Positions 9,205 through 17,060 of a DNA stretch of 64,000 nt are shown piece by piece (positions within the stretch are counted from its first letter, which is position 1; every line of letters starts with the position of its first letter). The notes under the pieces are model-generated. The model did not search any database. It was not told the DNA's origin and saw nothing but the letters and a program-made list of their open reading frames with translations. Made by a program: the position numbers and the translations under genes. The stretch is from Caldilineaceae bacterium SB0661_bin_32 (lineage in GTDB: Bacteria > Chloroflexota > Anaerolineae > Caldilineales > Caldilineaceae): positions 1 to 64,000 of the forward strand of contig VXMH01000036.1 of assembly GCA_009841235.1 (NCBI GenBank). Reading direction: 5' to 3'.

Positions 9205-9945
9205 ATGTCCCAAGAATATACAGACCCCTATCATCTCAAGCGGACGGTGCTGGTCGCGGTCGTCAACAACCGGGCGGACCTGCGGCGGGCGGCGTCTGAG
9301 GGCTGGTATCGGATTCCGCAGAGGCGGGCGCCGCGGCGGGTCGGCGCCGACTATCTGGCCTTCTATCAGACGAGCGCTTTCGGGAGCGAAACGGAGGCGC
9401 GGACGATCAGCTACTATGCGGCAGTCCGCCGCTATCAGCTGCTTGCGCGCGCGGAGCTGATGCCGGAGGAGGCGGACCATGCGCGGGCGGAGGAGTACTA
9501 TTTCCGCATTGAGCTCGGGCCGTTGATGCGTTTGGCGCAGCCGGTCCCGGCAACTACGTTCAAGCGGCTGACCTTTATCCACACGACGCTGGAGCGTCTG
9601 TTGAGCGCGAAGGACGTAAAGGAGCTGAGGCTGGAGGGAGAGCCGTTCCAGGCGTTGTGGAGCGCGCTGCGGGCGAGCCGACTGCGGCCGCTACCCAACC
9701 GGTTGGCGGGAGAGTGGCCGGTGGACATCGCGTTGCGCGTGCGCAATGGGTACCTGGGCATCCGGCTTGATGAGGCCAGCGATATGCGTGAGGCGTCCGA
9801 GCCGGCAGATCGCTGGACGATACTGCGAATACCTGAGAGCCAGATTGCGGCTGACCTGGAGGGCTGCCTGCGGGCGGTCGGGGCGGCGCTGGTGGATCTG
9901 GGCGGTTCGCTGGACGCGAAGCCGGGACGGGAGATTGCGCTGTAG
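9205..9945 (+). CDS. DUF559-associated protein with degenerate nuclease-like C-terminus
   Basis: A 246-residue protein with no sure function. Residues 12-150 resemble the N-terminal module found ahead of DUF559 (Vsr-like) endonuclease domains: GWYRIP near 33, DYLAFYQTSAFG, ISYYAAV, an EYYFRIELGPL block and FKRLTFIHTT. Residues 170-240 align in pattern with a DUF559 domain (VDIALRVRNGYLGI, then WTILRIPESQI), but the loop between them is much shortened and the usual acidic IEVDG-type motif reads IRLDE. I infer a non-catalytic relic of a nuclease. It sits directly after uvsE, hinting at a DNA-related role. Confidence 0.6.
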   Translation: MSQEYTDPYHLKRTVLVAVVNNRADLRRAASEGWYRIPQRRAPRRVGADYLAFYQTSAFGSETEARTISYYAAVRRYQLLARAELMPEEADHARAEEYYFRIELGPLMRLAQPVPATTFKRLTFIHTTLERLLSAKDVKELRLEGEPFQALWSALRASRLRPLPNRLAGEWPVDIALRVRNGYLGIRLDEASDMREASEPADRWTILRIPESQIAADLEGCLRAVGAALVDLGGSLDAKPGREIAL

Positions 9946-9972: not shown

Positions 9973-10461
9973 ATGGAACTGCATGTGAACGGGAAAAGCT
10001 ATACGCTGGAGGCGCCTGCAGAAGAAAGGCTGCTATGGGTACTGCGGGACTGGCTGGGGCTGACGGGTACAAAGTTTGGCTGCGGCATCGGAATCTGCGG
10101 CGCGTGCACGGTCCACGTGAACGGGGCGGCGGTCCGATCGTGTCTGATGCCGCTGGCGGCGGTTGCGGGGGCCGACATTCGAACGATTGAGGGGCTGGCC
10201 GAGGGGGACGGGGGCGAGACGATCGCGCTGCATCCGGTCCAGCAGGCGTTCATTGACCACCAGGTCCCGCAGTGCGGCTGGTGCATGAGCGGGCAGATCA
10301 TGCAGGCGGCTTCGTTCCTGGCACAGAATCCGCAGCCTTCAGAAGAGGAGACTGCGCGCGCGATGAGCGGGAATTACTGTCGTTGCGGTTGCTATGTGCG
10401 CATCCGGCAGGCGGTCCAACAGGCGGCCGCGGCGGTGGGTGGGGAGGAGGCCGCGGCATGA
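9973..10461 (+). CDS. 2Fe-2S subunit of a molybdenum hydroxylase (IorA-like)
   Basis: Small iron-sulfur subunit of the xanthine-oxidase superfamily, resembling isoquinoline 1-oxidoreductase alpha subunit and aldehyde dehydrogenase small subunits. The 162 residues hold the plant-type ferredoxin cluster motif CGIGICGACTVHVNG (about 37-51) with the fourth Cys near 57. The second [2Fe-2S] site is CGWCMSGQ and NYCRCGCY (about 100-141). It passes electrons from the Mo site in the next gene. Its stop overlaps the following ATG (ATGA), so the two subunits are translationally coupled. Confidence 0.92.
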   Translation: MELHVNGKSYTLEAPAEERLLWVLRDWLGLTGTKFGCGIGICGACTVHVNGAAVRSCLMPLAAVAGADIRTIEGLAEGDGGETIALHPVQQAFIDHQVPQCGWCMSGQIMQAASFLAQNPQPSEEETARAMSGNYCRCGCYVRIRQAVQQAAAAVGGEEAAA

Positions 10462-12776
10462 CGCAGGATCGGAACCACACTGAGCAGGCGGGGCCGCCGG
10501 CCGGCTCGCCTAACGAAGGCGGCGAAGTTAAGGGAGCGGAGAGGGCCGACGCTACTCCGGCCAAGAAACGGCGCTGGCGGCTGACGCGGCGCGGATTTCT
10601 GATCGGTCTGGGGGCGGCAGGGGCTGGTCTGGCCGTGGGCGCGTACTTGGGCAGGCCGGTTCTCCACGAGATCATGGCGGAGAGCATGGCCGAGGCTGAA
10701 CACGCCGGGAGCGGTTTTATGCAGCTGCCTGAGGAGCCGCCGCTCTGGCTGGACGTATTGGAGGACAGCCGCATACGTCTCTCTCTGACCAAGGTAGAGA
10801 TGGGGCAGGGTGTTCACACGTCGATTGCGCAGATTGCGGTTGAGGAGCTGGGCATCAGCTGGGATGACCTGGTGGTGGAGCAGGCGGACACCTCTTCAAA
10901 GCTGGTGGACGGCTTCGGCACCGGCGGGAGCTTTTCGGTTGCAACCAGTTACGAACCACTGCGCCGCGCGGCGGCAGGAATGCGCAGTTTGCTGCAGCAG
11001 GAGGCGGCGGCGGCGTTAAAGCAGCCGGAGGCTGCACTGCGGGTTGAGGGGCGGGGGTTTGCGGTCGCGGACAGTCCGGAGAGGCGCGCTGACTTCTACA
11101 GTTTGGTTGACGCAGTTACGAACTGGGACCTTCCCGCGGAGGAGGCGCTGCAGCTGAAGGCGGCGGATGAATATACCGTCGTCGGACAGCCTGTTGCGCG
11201 CATCGACATTCCCGACAAAGTGACGGGGAAGGCAATCTACGGCTATGACATGCGCGTGCCCAATATGCTTTACGGGGCTGTCGCGCGGCCGCCAACGCTG
11301 GAGGCGAGACTGCTCAGCGCTTCAGCGGGCGAGGCCGAGGCGGTGGAAGGTGTCGTAGAGATTGTGATCGATGTGGAAAGCGGTTTTGCCGGGGTGGTGG
11401 CAGATACGCGCAGCGCGGCCTGGTCGGCGGTGAAGGCGATGGAGACGGAGTGGGATGAAGGGCATCTGTGGCAGCAGGAGGAGATCGAGGCGCTGATCGA
11501 GCCGGCAGGGGAAGGCGGAGTGACGATCCAGCGCGAAGGAAATGCGGCGGACGCGCTGGGGAAAGAGACCACGATCACGGCCACTTACCGTTCGCCGTTT
11601 GCCGTACAGGCACCGCTCGAAGCGCCGGCGGCGCTGGCGGATGTAAGGGACGGTCAGGTGACGGTGTGGGTATCGACGCAGTCTCAGGAACGGGTCAAAG
11701 GGCTGATCGCGGAGACGCTCGGGGTAGAGGCCGACGGTGTTCGGGTTGTCCCGACCTATCTCGGGGGCGGCTTTGGCAGCAAGCTGGATACGGGGGCGGC
11801 AGTTGAAGCGGCGCGCCTGTCCAAGGCAGCTGGCGCGCCTGTACACGTGGGATGGGATCGAACGGAAGCGATGCTTCATGGCTACCTGCGGCCGCCGACG
11901 AAAAGCGTTCTCTCCGGGGCACTGGACGGGGCTGGGCGGATTATCGCCATGGAGCACCGGCAAGGGAGCAGCGACGTGGCTTTCAGTTTCATGCCGGGTT
12001 TCATGGCGTTCGTCATGGGCGCAGACTTCGGCGCGACGATAGGGGCGCGTATCAACTATGATGTGCCCAACCGCACGGTGACGGCCTGGCGAAAGAGGCT
12101 GCCGGTATGGACCGGCTGGTGGCGCGGGTTGGGGCTTTTCGCGAATACATTTGCGGTGGAGAGTTTCGTTGATGAGCTGGCGGCGGCGGCGGGCGCGGAC
12201 CCACTCCGGTTCCGGATCGATCATCTGCCGGACAGTCCTGCAGGCGGACGCATGAGGGCCGTCCTGGAGGCGGTCGCGGAACTGAGCGGCTGGGGGACGG
12301 CGCCGCCTGCGGGCCGGGCGCGGGGCATCGCCTGTTTTGCATCCAACACAGTGGTGGCACAGGTGGCGGAGGTATCGGTGGACGTAGAGTCCGGCGAGAT
12401 CACAGTTCATGAGGTTGCCTGCGCTGTGGACTGCGGGCTGGTCGTGAACCCCGATGGGGCGAAGGCGCAGATAGAGGGGAACGTGATGTGGGGCGTGGGG
12501 TCGACGCTGATCGAGCAGGCGTATGTTAAGGATGGACGCCTGAAACTGAACAACTTCGAGAGTTACCCGCTGCTGACGATGCGTGATGCGCCCAACGTCC
12601 GTTCCGTTCTTGTGGACAATGGTATTGAAACGCCGTACGGTATGGGCGAGCCGCCGATCGGGCCGGTCGGCGGGGCAGTTGCCAACGCGTTTACGGCGGC
12701 GACGGGGCGGCGCATCCGCACACTGCCAATGACGCCGGCGCGTGTTTTGGATGCGCTGGCTGGGGGCGAGTCCTGA
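10458..12776 (+). CDS. Molybdopterin-binding subunit of a molybdenum hydroxylase (IorB-like), Tat-exported
   Basis: Large catalytic subunit (772 residues) of a xanthine-oxidase-family hydroxylase of IorB type, acting on N-heterocycles or aldehydes with water as oxygen source. A twin-arginine signal (LTRRGFLIG near residues 42-50 followed by a Gly/Ala stretch) predicts periplasmic or extracytoplasmic location with folded cofactor. MPT-contact blocks are visible: EMGQGVHT, a GGSFS segment, YLGGGFGSK, and the Glu motif GMGEPPIGPVGGAVANAF near the C-terminus. The substrate cannot be told. The open frame starts earlier at 10272, inside the small subunit, but ATG 10458 with the ATGA overlap is the natural start. 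No third FAD subunit or maturation chaperone is adjacent. Confidence 0.92.
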   Translation: MTQDRNHTEQAGPPAGSPNEGGEVKGAERADATPAKKRRWRLTRRGFLIGLGAAGAGLAVGAYLGRPVLHEIMAESMAEAEHAGSGFMQLPEEPPLWLDVLEDSRIRLSLTKVEMGQGVHTSIAQIAVEELGISWDDLVVEQADTSSKLVDGFGTGGSFSVATSYEPLRRAAAGMRSLLQQEAAAALKQPEAALRVEGRGFAVADSPERRADFYSLVDAVTNWDLPAEEALQLKAADEYTVVGQPVARIDIPDKVTGKAIYGYDMRVPNMLYGAVARPPTLEARLLSASAGEAEAVEGVVEIVIDVESGFAGVVADTRSAAWSAVKAMETEWDEGHLWQQEEIEALIEPAGEGGVTIQREGNAADALGKETTITATYRSPFAVQAPLEAPAALADVRDGQVTVWVSTQSQERVKGLIAETLGVEADGVRVVPTYLGGGFGSKLDTGAAVEAARLSKAAGAPVHVGWDRTEAMLHGYLRPPTKSVLSGALDGAGRIIAMEHRQGSSDVAFSFMPGFMAFVMGADFGATIGARINYDVPNRTVTAWRKRLPVWTGWWRGLGLFANTFAVESFVDELAAAAGADPLRFRIDHLPDSPAGGRMRAVLEAVAELSGWGTAPPAGRARGIACFASNTVVAQVAEVSVDVESGEITVHEVACAVDCGLVVNPDGAKAQIEGNVMWGVGSTLIEQAYVKDGRLKLNNFESYPLLTMRDAPNVRSVLVDNGIETPYGMGEPPIGPVGGAVANAFTAATGRRIRTLPMTPARVLDALAGGES

Positions 12777-12811: not shown

Positions 12812-13399
12812 TCAGCTTTGTTCGCCTGAGACGCCCAGCTCCGGGGCGACTTCTTTCATGGCGTCGAGAACGCGCTGCACGTGCTCATCGAAGGGTTCGC
12901 CCAGCTCCTCGATAAAGTGGAGGTTTTCGGCGCGGTCGATGGCGGCGGTGAAGCGCTTGTCCTTCCACTTCTTTTTGACGGATTTGAGCCTGACGCCGCG
13001 CAGGTCCTTGTCGGGGCGCACGTAGGCGCAGGCGAGGATCAGGCCGGTGAGCTCGTCACAGGCCAGGAGCGCTTTGTCGAGCCTGGACTGGCGCGGAACG
13101 CCGAGGAAGGTGGCGTGGGCCTCGACGGCGTGGATGAATTCCGGCGGGTAGTCGTGCTGGCGGAAGAGGCGGAGCGCGGTACGGGGATGGCCGTTTTCCT
13201 GGTCGTCCATGTCGGGAAAGCGGTCGTAGTCCAGATCGTGGAGCAGACCTGTCAGTCCCCAGAGATCCTCATCCTCGCCATAGTGACGGGCGTAGACGCG
13301 CATGGCGGCTTCTACAGCCAGCATGTGGCGGCGCAGCCCCTCATTTTCGACCCAATCATGCAGTAGTTGTATCGCTTCGTTTCGGCTAGGCAGGGGCAT
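12812..13399 (-). CDS. HD-superfamily predicted hydrolase (COG2316-like)
   Basis: A 195-residue HD-domain protein. Metal ligands are visible as H25 region (LRRHMLAVEAAM), the HD doublet in GLLHDLDYD (about 53-54) and a later histidine/aspartate pair in AVEAHA and ACDELTGL. The family (predicted HD hydrolase, HDIG-like) is widespread and acts on phosphomonoesters or nucleotides; the substrate is not known. It is the last gene of a compact minus-strand group, starting 10 bases after the caspase-like gene ends. Confidence 0.85.
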   Translation of the reverse strand: MPLPSRNEAIQLLHDWVENEGLRRHMLAVEAAMRVYARHYGEDEDLWGLTGLLHDLDYDRFPDMDDQENGHPRTALRLFRQHDYPPEFIHAVEAHATFLGVPRQSRLDKALLACDELTGLILACAYVRPDKDLRGVRLKSVKKKWKDKRFTAAIDRAENLHFIEELGEPFDEHVQRVLDAMKEVAPELGVSGEQS

Positions 13400-13409
13400 G
13401 GCGGCTCCT

Positions 13410-14276
13410 CTAGTCTGGTGTGGGCAGTTCGCCGTCTGTCGCGAGCTGGGGGCGTGCGGCGGCTTTTTGAACTGGTGTGAATTGGGCGGTTCGAGCCAGG
13501 TCGGTAACCGAAGTTATGGTCACGTCGCGCCGGCCGTAGACGATCTGGCGGCTGCCGGCGATGTTAGGGTGTTCGCTGCCGTCGGGCCGGTCCTGCCAGA
13601 GGCGTTTGCCGATTGCGCGGGCGCGGCGGGCGCTGCAGCCTACGGCTTCACTGAAAGGGGCGCCGCTGAGCCACTTGCGCAGAAAGAGGCTGAGGCTTGG
13701 CTCCGGCAGCCAGTTGACGGCCTGGGCGCCGTTGACGGCTTGGGCGCCCAAGGCCAGCCAGGTGGAGGCCAGGCTGGCGCCGTAGCAGTTGAGTCCGTAG
13801 ACCATGCGCAGGTCGAGCAGGGAGCTGTCCTCGACATAGCGGGCCAGAAGCCGGTCGAACGCGGCTGCGTCGACGAGTTCCCGTCCCTTGTAACCGATCA
13901 GGCAGCGGTTCTGTCCATGCACGAGCAGAAGTTGATCGACGGTATGGGTGGCGCTGACGCGAATGAGGGCGGCGGTCAGGTTGGCGGCGGTGGCTGCTTC
14001 ATCTTCGAGGATAACGATGCGGTGGTAGCGGCGGTAGGCGCCGAGGAGACGCAGCAGGAGCTTGGCGTACTCTTCGGTAACCCAATCGATGACGGCCGTC
14101 ACCCATTGGGGCAGATCGACGCCGTGGATGTGGCCAACGTTTTCGAGGAAGACGACCAGCGCCAAGGGTCTGCCGGCAGTCGACGCGGCGGCGTCATGAA
14201 GTTCTGAGGATGGCTTTGAAGCCTTACGAGGGCGAACTGCGGCAGCGGAATCCTTGAGCGACCGGGCAAGAGCCAT
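13410..14276 (-). CDS. Predicted caspase-like (HC-dyad) protein
   Basis: I do not recognise a named family. From ATG 14276 it is 288 residues. The order of elements is that of caspase/CHAT-type cysteine peptidases: a beta strand LALVVFLENV, the pattern IVILEDEAATAANLTAAL, a strand ending in a histidine-glycine (LLLVHG, H120), a second strand ending in Asn-Cys (VYGLNCYGASLAS, C164), then GA-AVNW and PFSEAV. H120 and C164 would be the dyad. A six-residue tandem duplication (GAQAVN twice) follows the putative nucleophile. A TTG at 14342 could extend the frame but would overlap the upstream gene. Peptidase activity is inferred. Confidence 0.55.
   Translation of the reverse strand: MALARSLKDSAAAVRPRKASKPSSELHDAAASTAGRPLALVVFLENVGHIHGVDLPQWVTAVIDWVTEEYAKLLLRLLGAYRRYHRIVILEDEAATAANLTAALIRVSATHTVDQLLLVHGQNRCLIGYKGRELVDAAAFDRLLARYVEDSSLLDLRMVYGLNCYGASLASTWLALGAQAVNGAQAVNWLPEPSLSLFLRKWLSGAPFSEAVGCSARRARAIGKRLWQDRPDGSEHPNIAGSRQIVYGRRDVTITSVTDLARTAQFTPVQKAAARPQLATDGELPTPD
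13713..13748. repeat. Tandem duplication, two 18-bp units
   Basis: GTTGACGGCCTGGGCGCC (13713-13730) is followed immediately by the same unit with one C-to-T change (13731-13748). Inside the caspase-like gene it adds six residues in frame just after the putative catalytic cysteine strand. Confidence 0.9.
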
Positions 14277-14313: not shown

Positions 14314-14613
14314 TCAGAATTGGAAGCGGCCGTTGGCGTCAACGACCCGAACTTTGAAGTTTTCGACGAACGGTTCGAGGCCGGCGATCAGTTCCTGCCA
14401 CTCGTCTGAGCTCAGGATGCGTGCGGCGTCTTCTTTGTCCTCAAGAACGCCGCCGCCGAGGATCTGGGGGGCTTCTCCCCAGAGGGTGTACCAGGCGTCG
14501 GTAATGCGCAGGCCCAGTTGCGCCAAGCCGGGAGCGAGCGTCTGCACGACGTAACGCTGACAGTCTTCTTCGTGCCCTTCCCGCATATCGTAACTCAGTA
14601 GTACTTTGACCAT
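14314..14613 (-). CDS. Small ferredoxin-like (dimeric alpha-beta barrel) protein, function unknown
   Basis: A 99-residue cytoplasmic protein beginning MVKVLLSYDMREGHEEDCQ. Length, the beta start, the Glu-rich first helix and the WYTLWG and EWQELI elements fit a dimeric alpha-beta barrel (ABM/NIPSNAP/EthD-like) fold. No catalytic residue set is recognisable. ATG 14613 is chosen because the 13 preceding residues in frame do not look structural. It is the first gene of the minus-strand trio that continues with the caspase-like and HD genes. Confidence 0.65.
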   Translation of the reverse strand: MVKVLLSYDMREGHEEDCQRYVVQTLAPGLAQLGLRITDAWYTLWGEAPQILGGGVLEDKEDAARILSSDEWQELIAGLEPFVENFKVRVVDANGRFQF

Positions 14614-14847: not shown

Positions 14848-16152
14848 TCAATCAGAGGCAAGGGAGAGAACAGTATGCAGACGCACTTCAGCCTGGCGAC
14901 GGAACTGTTCGACACTGATTGAACGGAAGAGCCAAACTGCCAGCAGCAGGCCAACGATTTCGAGAGAGAAGACGGCTGAGTACCCCATGAGCGGGTTGCC
15001 CGTCAGCCAGAAGAACATATCATAAAGCAGACCGCTGATGACATTGCCGATGGCCTGACCGACGAAGTTTGCTACGCTCCAGGCGCCAATGTAGAGTCCG
15101 GCGGCCTGGGGTACGGTCATATCCAGCATAAAACTGAGGTTGCTGACGGTCATGAGGCCGCCGCCCAGCCCCAACAGGAAGACAGAGCCGAGAAACAGGT
15201 TTGGCTGGCCGAGCAGGCCGGCGGAGATAATGGAAGCGAAGGCAACGGCGGCCACGCAGGCGCCGACATTTGCGCCCGTTTTTTTTCCAAAGCGTTTTAC
15301 AAACAGGATTCCGGCAAGGAGGGTGATGAAGATGCCGACGCCCCAGATCGATGTCAGGCGGGAGGTGGCCGCGACCGACATACCCAATGCTTCTGCTCCG
15401 AACGGCTCCAGCACAACGTCCTGTGCGTGGATGCTGATCAACACGATCATCAGATAGAGAAAGAAGCGGCGGGCCTGTGGATTCAGAGCCAGCAGGCGGA
15501 GCACCAGCAAGGGATCATCGGCGCTGTTGGAAGGTTGGGCGGTTCTGGCTGATGCCCGGGGTTCTATGCGATAGCTGCCCACAAGGACGAAGATAACGGA
15601 TACGAGCCAGATCGCGCCAAAGGCTGTGTAGAGCGTCTCCTTCGAGAAGGTCGCTAACATGCGGGATAACGCATAGGCGGTGACGATAGTCGCCGCGATC
15701 ATTGCAGTCCACATGATGCTGACGGCGCGGCTACGCCCCTCTTCGTCGGCGAGGTCGGTGACCAGAGAGAGGTAGCTGACCGAGGCGGCGTTGATGCCGG
15801 CTCCCCAGAGGCAGAAAACGACGACAGCGGCCCCGAGACCTAACATGAAGTTACTGTCCAGCAGATAGGCTACGTGGACTGTGAAGTAACTGCCGGTCGC
15901 GGCGACAAGCCCGCCGAGGAGAATCCAGGGTGTGCGGTGGTAATCGGCCGCAGGATGGCGGTCCGACCAGTTTCCCAGGAATATCTGCAGAGGGGAAAGC
16001 AGGTAGGGCAAGGCGACCAGGACGGCCACCAGCGTTACCGACATCTGCATATCGGCGATCATGACGCGATTAAGCGTGCTGGTGACCGGGACGACGGTAA
16101 TGGAAACCCCTACATGTACGAGGGCAAGCTGGGCGAGAATGCGGGCATTCAT
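14848..16152 (-). CDS. MFS transporter of the PucC / bacteriochlorophyll-delivery type
   Basis: A 434-residue, roughly 12-helix membrane protein. The N-terminal half has the PucC-family pattern: VVPVTSTLNRVMI, LVALPYLLSPLQI, GNWSDRHP and RTPWILLGGL. In phototrophs this family (PucC, LhaA, bacteriochlorophyll synthase 44 kDa chain) supports light-harvesting complex assembly; homologues in non-phototrophs have unknown substrates. The in-frame extension upstream of ATG 16152 is hydrophilic and not family-like. No photosynthesis gene lies in this window. A divergent gene starts 209 bases away. Confidence 0.78.
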   Translation of the reverse strand: MNARILAQLALVHVGVSITVVPVTSTLNRVMIADMQMSVTLVAVLVALPYLLSPLQIFLGNWSDRHPAADYHRTPWILLGGLVAATGSYFTVHVAYLLDSNFMLGLGAAVVVFCLWGAGINAASVSYLSLVTDLADEEGRSRAVSIMWTAMIAATIVTAYALSRMLATFSKETLYTAFGAIWLVSVIFVLVGSYRIEPRASARTAQPSNSADDPLLVLRLLALNPQARRFFLYLMIVLISIHAQDVVLEPFGAEALGMSVAATSRLTSIWGVGIFITLLAGILFVKRFGKKTGANVGACVAAVAFASIISAGLLGQPNLFLGSVFLLGLGGGLMTVSNLSFMLDMTVPQAAGLYIGAWSVANFVGQAIGNVISGLLYDMFFWLTGNPLMGYSAVFSLEIVGLLLAVWLFRSISVEQFRRQAEVRLHTVLSLASD

Positions 16153-16266
16153 GGCTGAAGCGTACCATAGGGTTCTTGAGAATTCCAAGATTCTGACATC
16201 GAAAAGCAGGTCCTGAAAGTGGGTTTGCGATGTTCGGATCATGGCGCCGGCCAGACAGCCTATCGG

Positions 16267-16361: not shown

Positions 16362-17060
16362 GTGACTGAGGTAGGCACTGAAGCCGGGCCCCGACCGGTT
16401 CCCGGCGTCGATCTTGCGGGTAGTGTTCCTATATTCGGCAGCTGCCCGGGCAGCCAGCTGGTTGACGGCGCATCGTTCGCCGACTTCAGCCGGAAGCGGC
16501 TCATTTTCGGGGCGTTCACACGGCTTGGCGAGACGCACGTGTACCGGGTGGACTGCAAGGCGGGCGACCGTCTGCGGGCGCAGATGTTCGCGCCTGTCCT
16601 GCCCCGCGGCGGTTCGGTGGTGCCGACGTTTGCGATCGTTGCGCGGAGCCTGCCGTACAGTGCGGACACGGAGAAGCTGCCATTGGAGCTGCCCCAGGGC
16701 TACAGCGCGATTGTGGCGCCGCCGCCAAGCGAACTTCTGCAGCCGGTCAAGGACGTGCTGACCCGTGTGCGTTACTACCCCGGCCCTCTCATCGACACGC
16801 GTACCCTGGTGGGCGGGCGCTGCTATCTTGTCGTGTGGACGCCCCACAACCGGATGGGCAAATATGTAGTGTCGATCGGCCATCGCTGGCATGTGAGGTG
16901 GAGCTATTGGGCCCAGCTGCCGCTGTATTGGTGGCGGATACGGGGCTGGTTCGGTCTAAGCCGTGCGGCTGCGCTGTATGTACTGGCCGGGGCCGTGTTG
17001 ATCGCGCTGGCTGTCGCCGCGATGTTGAGGCGCGGGGCGGGCGGCGGCCAAAACAGATGA
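16362..17060 (+). CDS. Membrane-anchored protein of unknown function
   Basis: A 232-residue protein that I do not recognise. It has no clear N-terminal signal. The first 170 residues look like a beta-sandwich ectodomain (ETHVYRVDCKAGDRL, then CYLVVWTPHN) reminiscent of pre-peptidase/PPC-type domains. A single membrane helix near residues 200-222 is followed by a basic tail, giving a type II-like or tail-anchored topology. GTG 16362 is supported by GGAGGGG six bases upstream. The downstream neighbour is a Get3/ArsA ATPase, which in other systems handles tail-anchored proteins; a link is only a suggestion. Confidence 0.6.
   Translation: MTEVGTEAGPRPVPGVDLAGSVPIFGSCPGSQLVDGASFADFSRKRLIFGAFTRLGETHVYRVDCKAGDRLRAQMFAPVLPRGGSVVPTFAIVARSLPYSADTEKLPLELPQGYSAIVAPPPSELLQPVKDVLTRVRYYPGPLIDTRTLVGGRCYLVVWTPHNRMGKYVVSIGHRWHVRWSYWAQLPLYWWRIRGWFGLSRAAALYVLAGAVLIALAVAAMLRRGAGGGQNR

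Follow-up and report, generated by a model that had tools for sequence, protein, structure and literature searches.

Most of the bacterial caspase-fold proteins known so far are either large proteins of defence or signalling, or secreted proteases. CHAT proteins (PF12770), such as SAVED-CHAT (8tl0) and the TPR-CHAT protein Csx29, usually come fused to a sensor or to TPRs, a feature that is common but not strictly defining. Caspases, metacaspases and orthocaspases form a second group (MEROPS C14, PF00656), and the clan CD fold is also found in gingipains (C25), legumains (C13), separases (C50) and clostripain (C11). The defining arrangement of clan CD puts the His where strand 3 ends and the Cys where strand 4 ends (McLuskey and Mottram, PMC4357240). 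In Csx29 the two residues are 43 positions apart (H615/C658; PMC10028731).

Here we describe a 288-aa protein encoded in a 64,000-nucleotide stretch of DNA (the window) from the 5.2 Mb genome of Caldilineaceae bacterium SB0661_bin_32 (Chloroflexota). A sequence-only reading had taken it for a divergent HC-dyad peptidase or pseudo-peptidase of the caspase type. On the basis of a predicted structure, it is reasonably likely to be a stand-alone cytoplasmic clan CD cysteine endopeptidase of its own family, probably partnered with a 99-aa protein encoded directly upstream.

The gene and its setting in the window

The coordinates of the features are collected in Table 1. The minus-strand genes run in the order PUCC transporter, 99-aa protein, clan CD-like protein and HD-domain protein, with a gap of 37 bp between the 99-aa gene and the clan CD-like gene downstream of it. 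A 301-aa ORF on the opposite strand (13302-14207) was set aside as a mechanical antisense frame of the 288-aa gene. Elsewhere in the window, a molybdenum hydroxylase pair (9973-12776; 2Fe-2S subunit and MoCoBD subunit) has overlapping reading frames, and at locus L031 this pair is missing between its flanking genes. Two further stretches (9205-9945 and 16362-17060) encode genus-conserved proteins of 246 and 232 aa, which have no Pfam match at E ≤ 0.001.

Table 1. Positions in the window of the clan CD-like gene, its conserved parts and the neighbouring genes.
Feature	Coordinates	Strand	Remarks
Clan CD-like His-Cys protein gene, 288 aa	13410..14276	minus	ATG at 14276, stop at 13410
Conserved domain of the clan CD-like protein, residues ~36-258	~14171-13503	minus	
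H120 codon, putative catalytic His	13917..13919	minus	motif LLLVHG; invariant; after strand 112-118 of the model
C164 codon, putative catalytic Cys	13785..13787	minus	motif GLNCYGA; invariant; after strand 156-161 of the model
Conserved NWLPEPSLSLFLRKW segment, residues 188-202	13671..13715	minus	candidate substrate-binding loop and following helix
99-aa NIPSNAP-like / dimeric alpha-beta-barrel protein gene	14314..14613	minus	conserved upstream partner
PUCC (BCD) family MFS transporter gene	14848..16230	minus	upstream
HD-domain protein gene	12812..13399	minus	downstream, gap 10 bp

Conservation and distribution of the gene

The clan CD-like gene was found as a single copy in 43 of 46 Caldilineaceae genomes, the window's own included, and the other copies were 37-88% identical to the window protein. 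Within the genus, dN/dS was 0.25-0.40 over the whole gene and 0.14-0.29 over the core domain, which marks the gene as protein-coding and subject to purifying selection. Both ends of the protein (the first ~33 and last ~28 residues) vary and are predicted to be disordered. H120, G121 and C164 were invariant in all distinct homologues aligned (43/43), and N188, P191, P193, F198, L199 and W202 were invariant in a 36-row alignment. The most divergent genus of the family (g2, 38% identity) has ACHS around the Cys and retains the dyad.

The sequence-only reading had placed H120 in VHG and C164 in NCYGA, accompanied by EDEAATAANLTAAL, GA-AVNW and PFSEAV. The two residues lie at exactly these positions and all the accompanying motifs are present in the ORF. 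The occurrence of the ORF in nearly all genomes of the family, the invariance of H120, G121 and C164 and the low dN/dS indicate that the motif is more than a chance resemblance. Because both His and Cys are invariant, the pseudo-peptidase option offered by the same reading appears unlikely.

Relatives outside Caldilineaceae were sought in a class-wide draw of genomes, which yielded eight: five copies in one other family (f21, ~45% identity) and three distant singletons (~24-29%). The singletons, which come from other families, carry HLHG and TACYG/VACYG, and profile comparison identified them as true relatives (98% probability, E 1e-14). In a 16-row alignment with all eight outside-family relatives, in which row L093 has its corrected frame, the His, Gly and Cys were among only 17 invariant columns. 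At two of the three f21 loci listed (L095:4866-7385 and L096:223-2748), the tail-to-tail neighbour of the relative is a gene whose N-terminus suggests a Clp-type ATPase-like product.

When 400 genomes were drawn evenly from the phylum, the window's own copy alone was returned; this search used a query profile (A3) that included the out-of-frame row L093, and as it scored no more than six top candidates in each genome, divergent phylum copies may be missed. The plasmid collection gave no match to the clan CD-like protein. The three family genomes without the gene were G005 and two genomes that are 84-86% complete. Absence from G005 had been considered as a co-loss with the partner gene, a reading that was dropped because G005 is also without the PUCC and HD genes; the gene is probably missing there through an assembly gap. 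The three gene-less genomes therefore say little. Overall, the gene looks like a vertically inherited member of the core genome and not a phage-defence cassette.

Sequence searches against known families

The window protein and 35 homologues were searched against Pfam at E ≤ 1, and no match was obtained, including to the CHAT, C14, C11, C13, C25 and C50 families. Similarly, no NCBIfam or PHROGs model matched the 288-aa protein, and no PADLOC model matched either the protein or its neighbours. The PDB sequence searches (phmmer and profile) gave nothing significant. The few weak matches of the profile search included caspase-2 and an ancestral effector caspase, and the caspase-2 alignment placed both His and Cys in register at an E of about 1, which is not significant alone. 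Tankyrase ankyrin matches in the sequence searches were short and were judged to be chance. The earlier remark that the protein lacks an obvious family name thus agrees with all of these searches.

In profile-profile comparison (hhalign), CHAT and C14 proteins from the same and related genomes scored no higher than unrelated controls; the alignments were shallow, secondary structure was not scored, the controls were unrelated neighbours and row L093 was excluded. Kinship with CHAT or C14 therefore rests on predicted structure.

Predicted fold and putative catalytic dyad

The AlphaFold2 model, built from 23 sequences, had a pLDDT of 76 overall (mostly 80-95 over the domain) and a pTM of 0.73. 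DSSP assigned six core strands to the model (38-44, 86-91, 112-118, 156-161, 180-184 and 244-248), with H120 two residues past the third strand and C164 three residues past the fourth. The predicted model thus has the clan CD arrangement of six strands with His and then Cys after strands 3 and 4, and the dyad is conserved family-wide.

The Foldseek search against the PDB placed SAVED-CHAT first (E 2.1e-8), followed by CED-3 and caspases, and all of the best 50 matches listed were SAVED-CHAT, CED-3 or caspases. With VIA-align, the best match was again SAVED-CHAT (Z 17.7; 188 residues aligned, 2.9 Å), and high scores were also obtained for gingipain RgpB (Z 15.4), legumain (Z ~14), separase (Z 12.9), the anti-sigma factor DdvA (Z 12.7) and caspase-7 (Z 12.5). 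TM-scores to the best structural matches were moderate (0.4-0.5 over the query). These results bear out the proposal of a divergent HC-dyad protein with a clan CD fold. On the model, fold and dyad of clan CD type are well supported, and strand order together with superposition would bring H120 and C164 next to each other.

Comparison with CHAT, C14 and other clan CD families

The His-Cys spacing of the 288-aa protein is 44, compared with 40-46 in CHAT proteins and 62 in C14 proteins (52-53 in two outliers) encoded in the same and related genomes. The order of GA-strand, loop, helix and EAL/EAV-like tail is presumably that of CHAT proteins. However, the protein has no Pfam CHAT match (E 1) and no TPR or SAVED domain, its partner gene is different, and it consists of a stand-alone domain of ~250 residues with disordered ends and no fused sensor or TPR region.

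The protein resembles caspases, metacaspases and orthocaspases in fold, in dyad order and in the weak caspase-2 profile alignment, but it lacks a PF00656 match and carries GLNCYGA in contrast to the QACRG or DCCHSG-type motifs of C14. A true C14 protein is encoded elsewhere in the window's own genome. Gingipains, legumains and separases share the modelled fold, whereas the protein has no Pfam match to C25, C13, C50 or C11, and no secretion signal or pro-domain is evident. In clostripain (C11), the P1-binding Asp229 lies two positions before the Cys (PMC11296011). In the 288-aa family, by contrast, this position is hydrophobic (Leu, Val or Ile), which would therefore argue against the usual Arg specificity by the clostripain route.

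The comparisons support a new clan CD sequence family that, on the model, is closest to CHAT in layout and by sequence is neither C14 nor CHAT. The literature search found nothing on this sequence family. Clan CD itself is known; the libraries and papers searched appear to contain no description of the sequence family, of its minimal stand-alone form or of its partner, and absence from these collections does not prove that the family has never been described.

The proposed partner gene upstream and the neighbourhood

In 15 of 17 genera, the most divergent included, the 99-aa gene is the next gene upstream and has the same orientation, and it overlaps the clan CD-like gene at an ATGA at two loci (L038 and L041). 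Three genomes of genus g6 retain the protease gene, the small gene and the PUCC gene, though on different contigs. The dN/dS of the partner was 0.005-0.04, making it far more constrained than the clan CD-like gene. Its predicted fold matched NIPSNAP (Foldseek E 4.7e-7) and ABM proteins (Z up to 12.1), and PF07978 (NIPSNAP) gave sub-threshold Pfam matches in 7 of 22 members of the partner family (best E 0.013). Unlike NIPSNAP and antibiotic-biosynthesis-monooxygenase dimeric alpha-beta barrels, the 99-aa protein pairs genetically with a clan CD protein. More distant copies of it, with no above-threshold Pfam match, occur in nearly the whole class (369 of 396 genomes), and Caldilineaceae carry a second, protease-linked copy. 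The relatives of the clan CD-like protein outside the family have no adjacent partner gene.

The PUCC gene is linked to the pair in many genera and is missing from several genera that retain both other genes. The 99-aa gene and the protease gene therefore form the core pair, and a bacteriochlorophyll link via PUCC was dropped on the same ground. The gene linkage could reflect slow rearrangement, with PUCC being dispensable. The HD-domain gene neighbours the protease gene in the window's genus only. At two g6 loci (L180:5462-8986 and L181:5858-9400), a gene for a ~1,180-aa protein with an N-terminal C14 domain lies just after PUCC; the domain was Pfam-checked in L180, and L181 starts alike and has a ~105-aa ORF between PUCC and this gene. 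In these genomes a different caspase-type protein is thus encoded next to the same transporter.

Proposed mechanism and competing explanations

We propose that Cys164 would act as the nucleophile that attacks the substrate, with His120 as the general base; two neighbouring parallel strands would carry these residues at their C-terminal ends. Substrate binding would fall to the conserved NWxPEPS loop that follows strand 5; such a role for this segment is suggested by its position, which matches that of the corresponding loop in peptidases of clan CD. Protease activity is quite likely. The putative protease is probably expressed with the 99-aa NIPSNAP-like protein, perhaps by co-transcription, and would be regulated by it or act on it. 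Conserved linkage and strong constraint make the small barrel protein the best candidate for a regulator or substrate, a relation for which we consider the chances evenly balanced. Family-wide single-copy inheritance and the lack of PADLOC matches favour a core regulatory or processing role.

It is unlikely, but worth weighing, that the clan CD fold serves no proteolysis here and that the protein is a pseudo-enzyme, a scaffold or another cysteine enzyme (transpeptidase, ligase or acyltransferase). Bacteria commonly carry pseudo-orthocaspases (PMC6426788), and among the legumain-type enzymes of clan CD, which have entries among the structural matches, some are ligases. However, pseudo-variants lose the dyad, whereas the His and Cys of this family are invariant down to ~24% identity.

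We regard it as improbable that the protein works as an effector in defence or in a nucleotide-signalled system, in the manner of SAVED-CHAT, Csx29 or the CBASS caspases. The closest structure is that of SAVED-CHAT, and in ten genera the protease gene lies tail-to-tail with a gene for a ~900-aa protein, in which Pfam identified four cNMP-binding domains at the three loci checked (L036:7627-10371, L058:150-2795 and L041:6739-9381). Genus g6 keeps this arrangement even though neither PUCC nor the small partner is still nearby. In the window's genome, however, the relative of the cNMP-binding gene is on another contig (C49), and the effector reading is further opposed by the missing sensor fusion, by the lack of any PADLOC match for the protein or its neighbours, and by single-copy, vertical inheritance in nearly the whole family. 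A coincidental motif match in an ordinary Rossmann-like enzyme would explain why no peptidase family gave a significant sequence-profile match, but it is very improbable, as the best structural matches are almost exclusively clan CD proteins and the dyad lies where the clan requires it.

Significance for Caldilineaceae

Returning to the putative protease and its partner, a bolder and rather doubtful extension is a two-gene module in which a clan CD protease absent from the family libraries is joined to a NIPSNAP-like inhibitor, activator or substrate, and which may connect to cyclic-nucleotide signalling in many genera via the tail-to-tail neighbour that carries four cNMP-binding domains. If true, this module would give Caldilineaceae a caspase-like switch for housekeeping. 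The results also suggest that current family libraries miss whole clan CD branches. In its unusual simplicity, a minimal, single-copy and near-family-wide clan CD protein with a single small, conserved partner suits asking what bacteria use caspase-like cleavage for beyond immunity.
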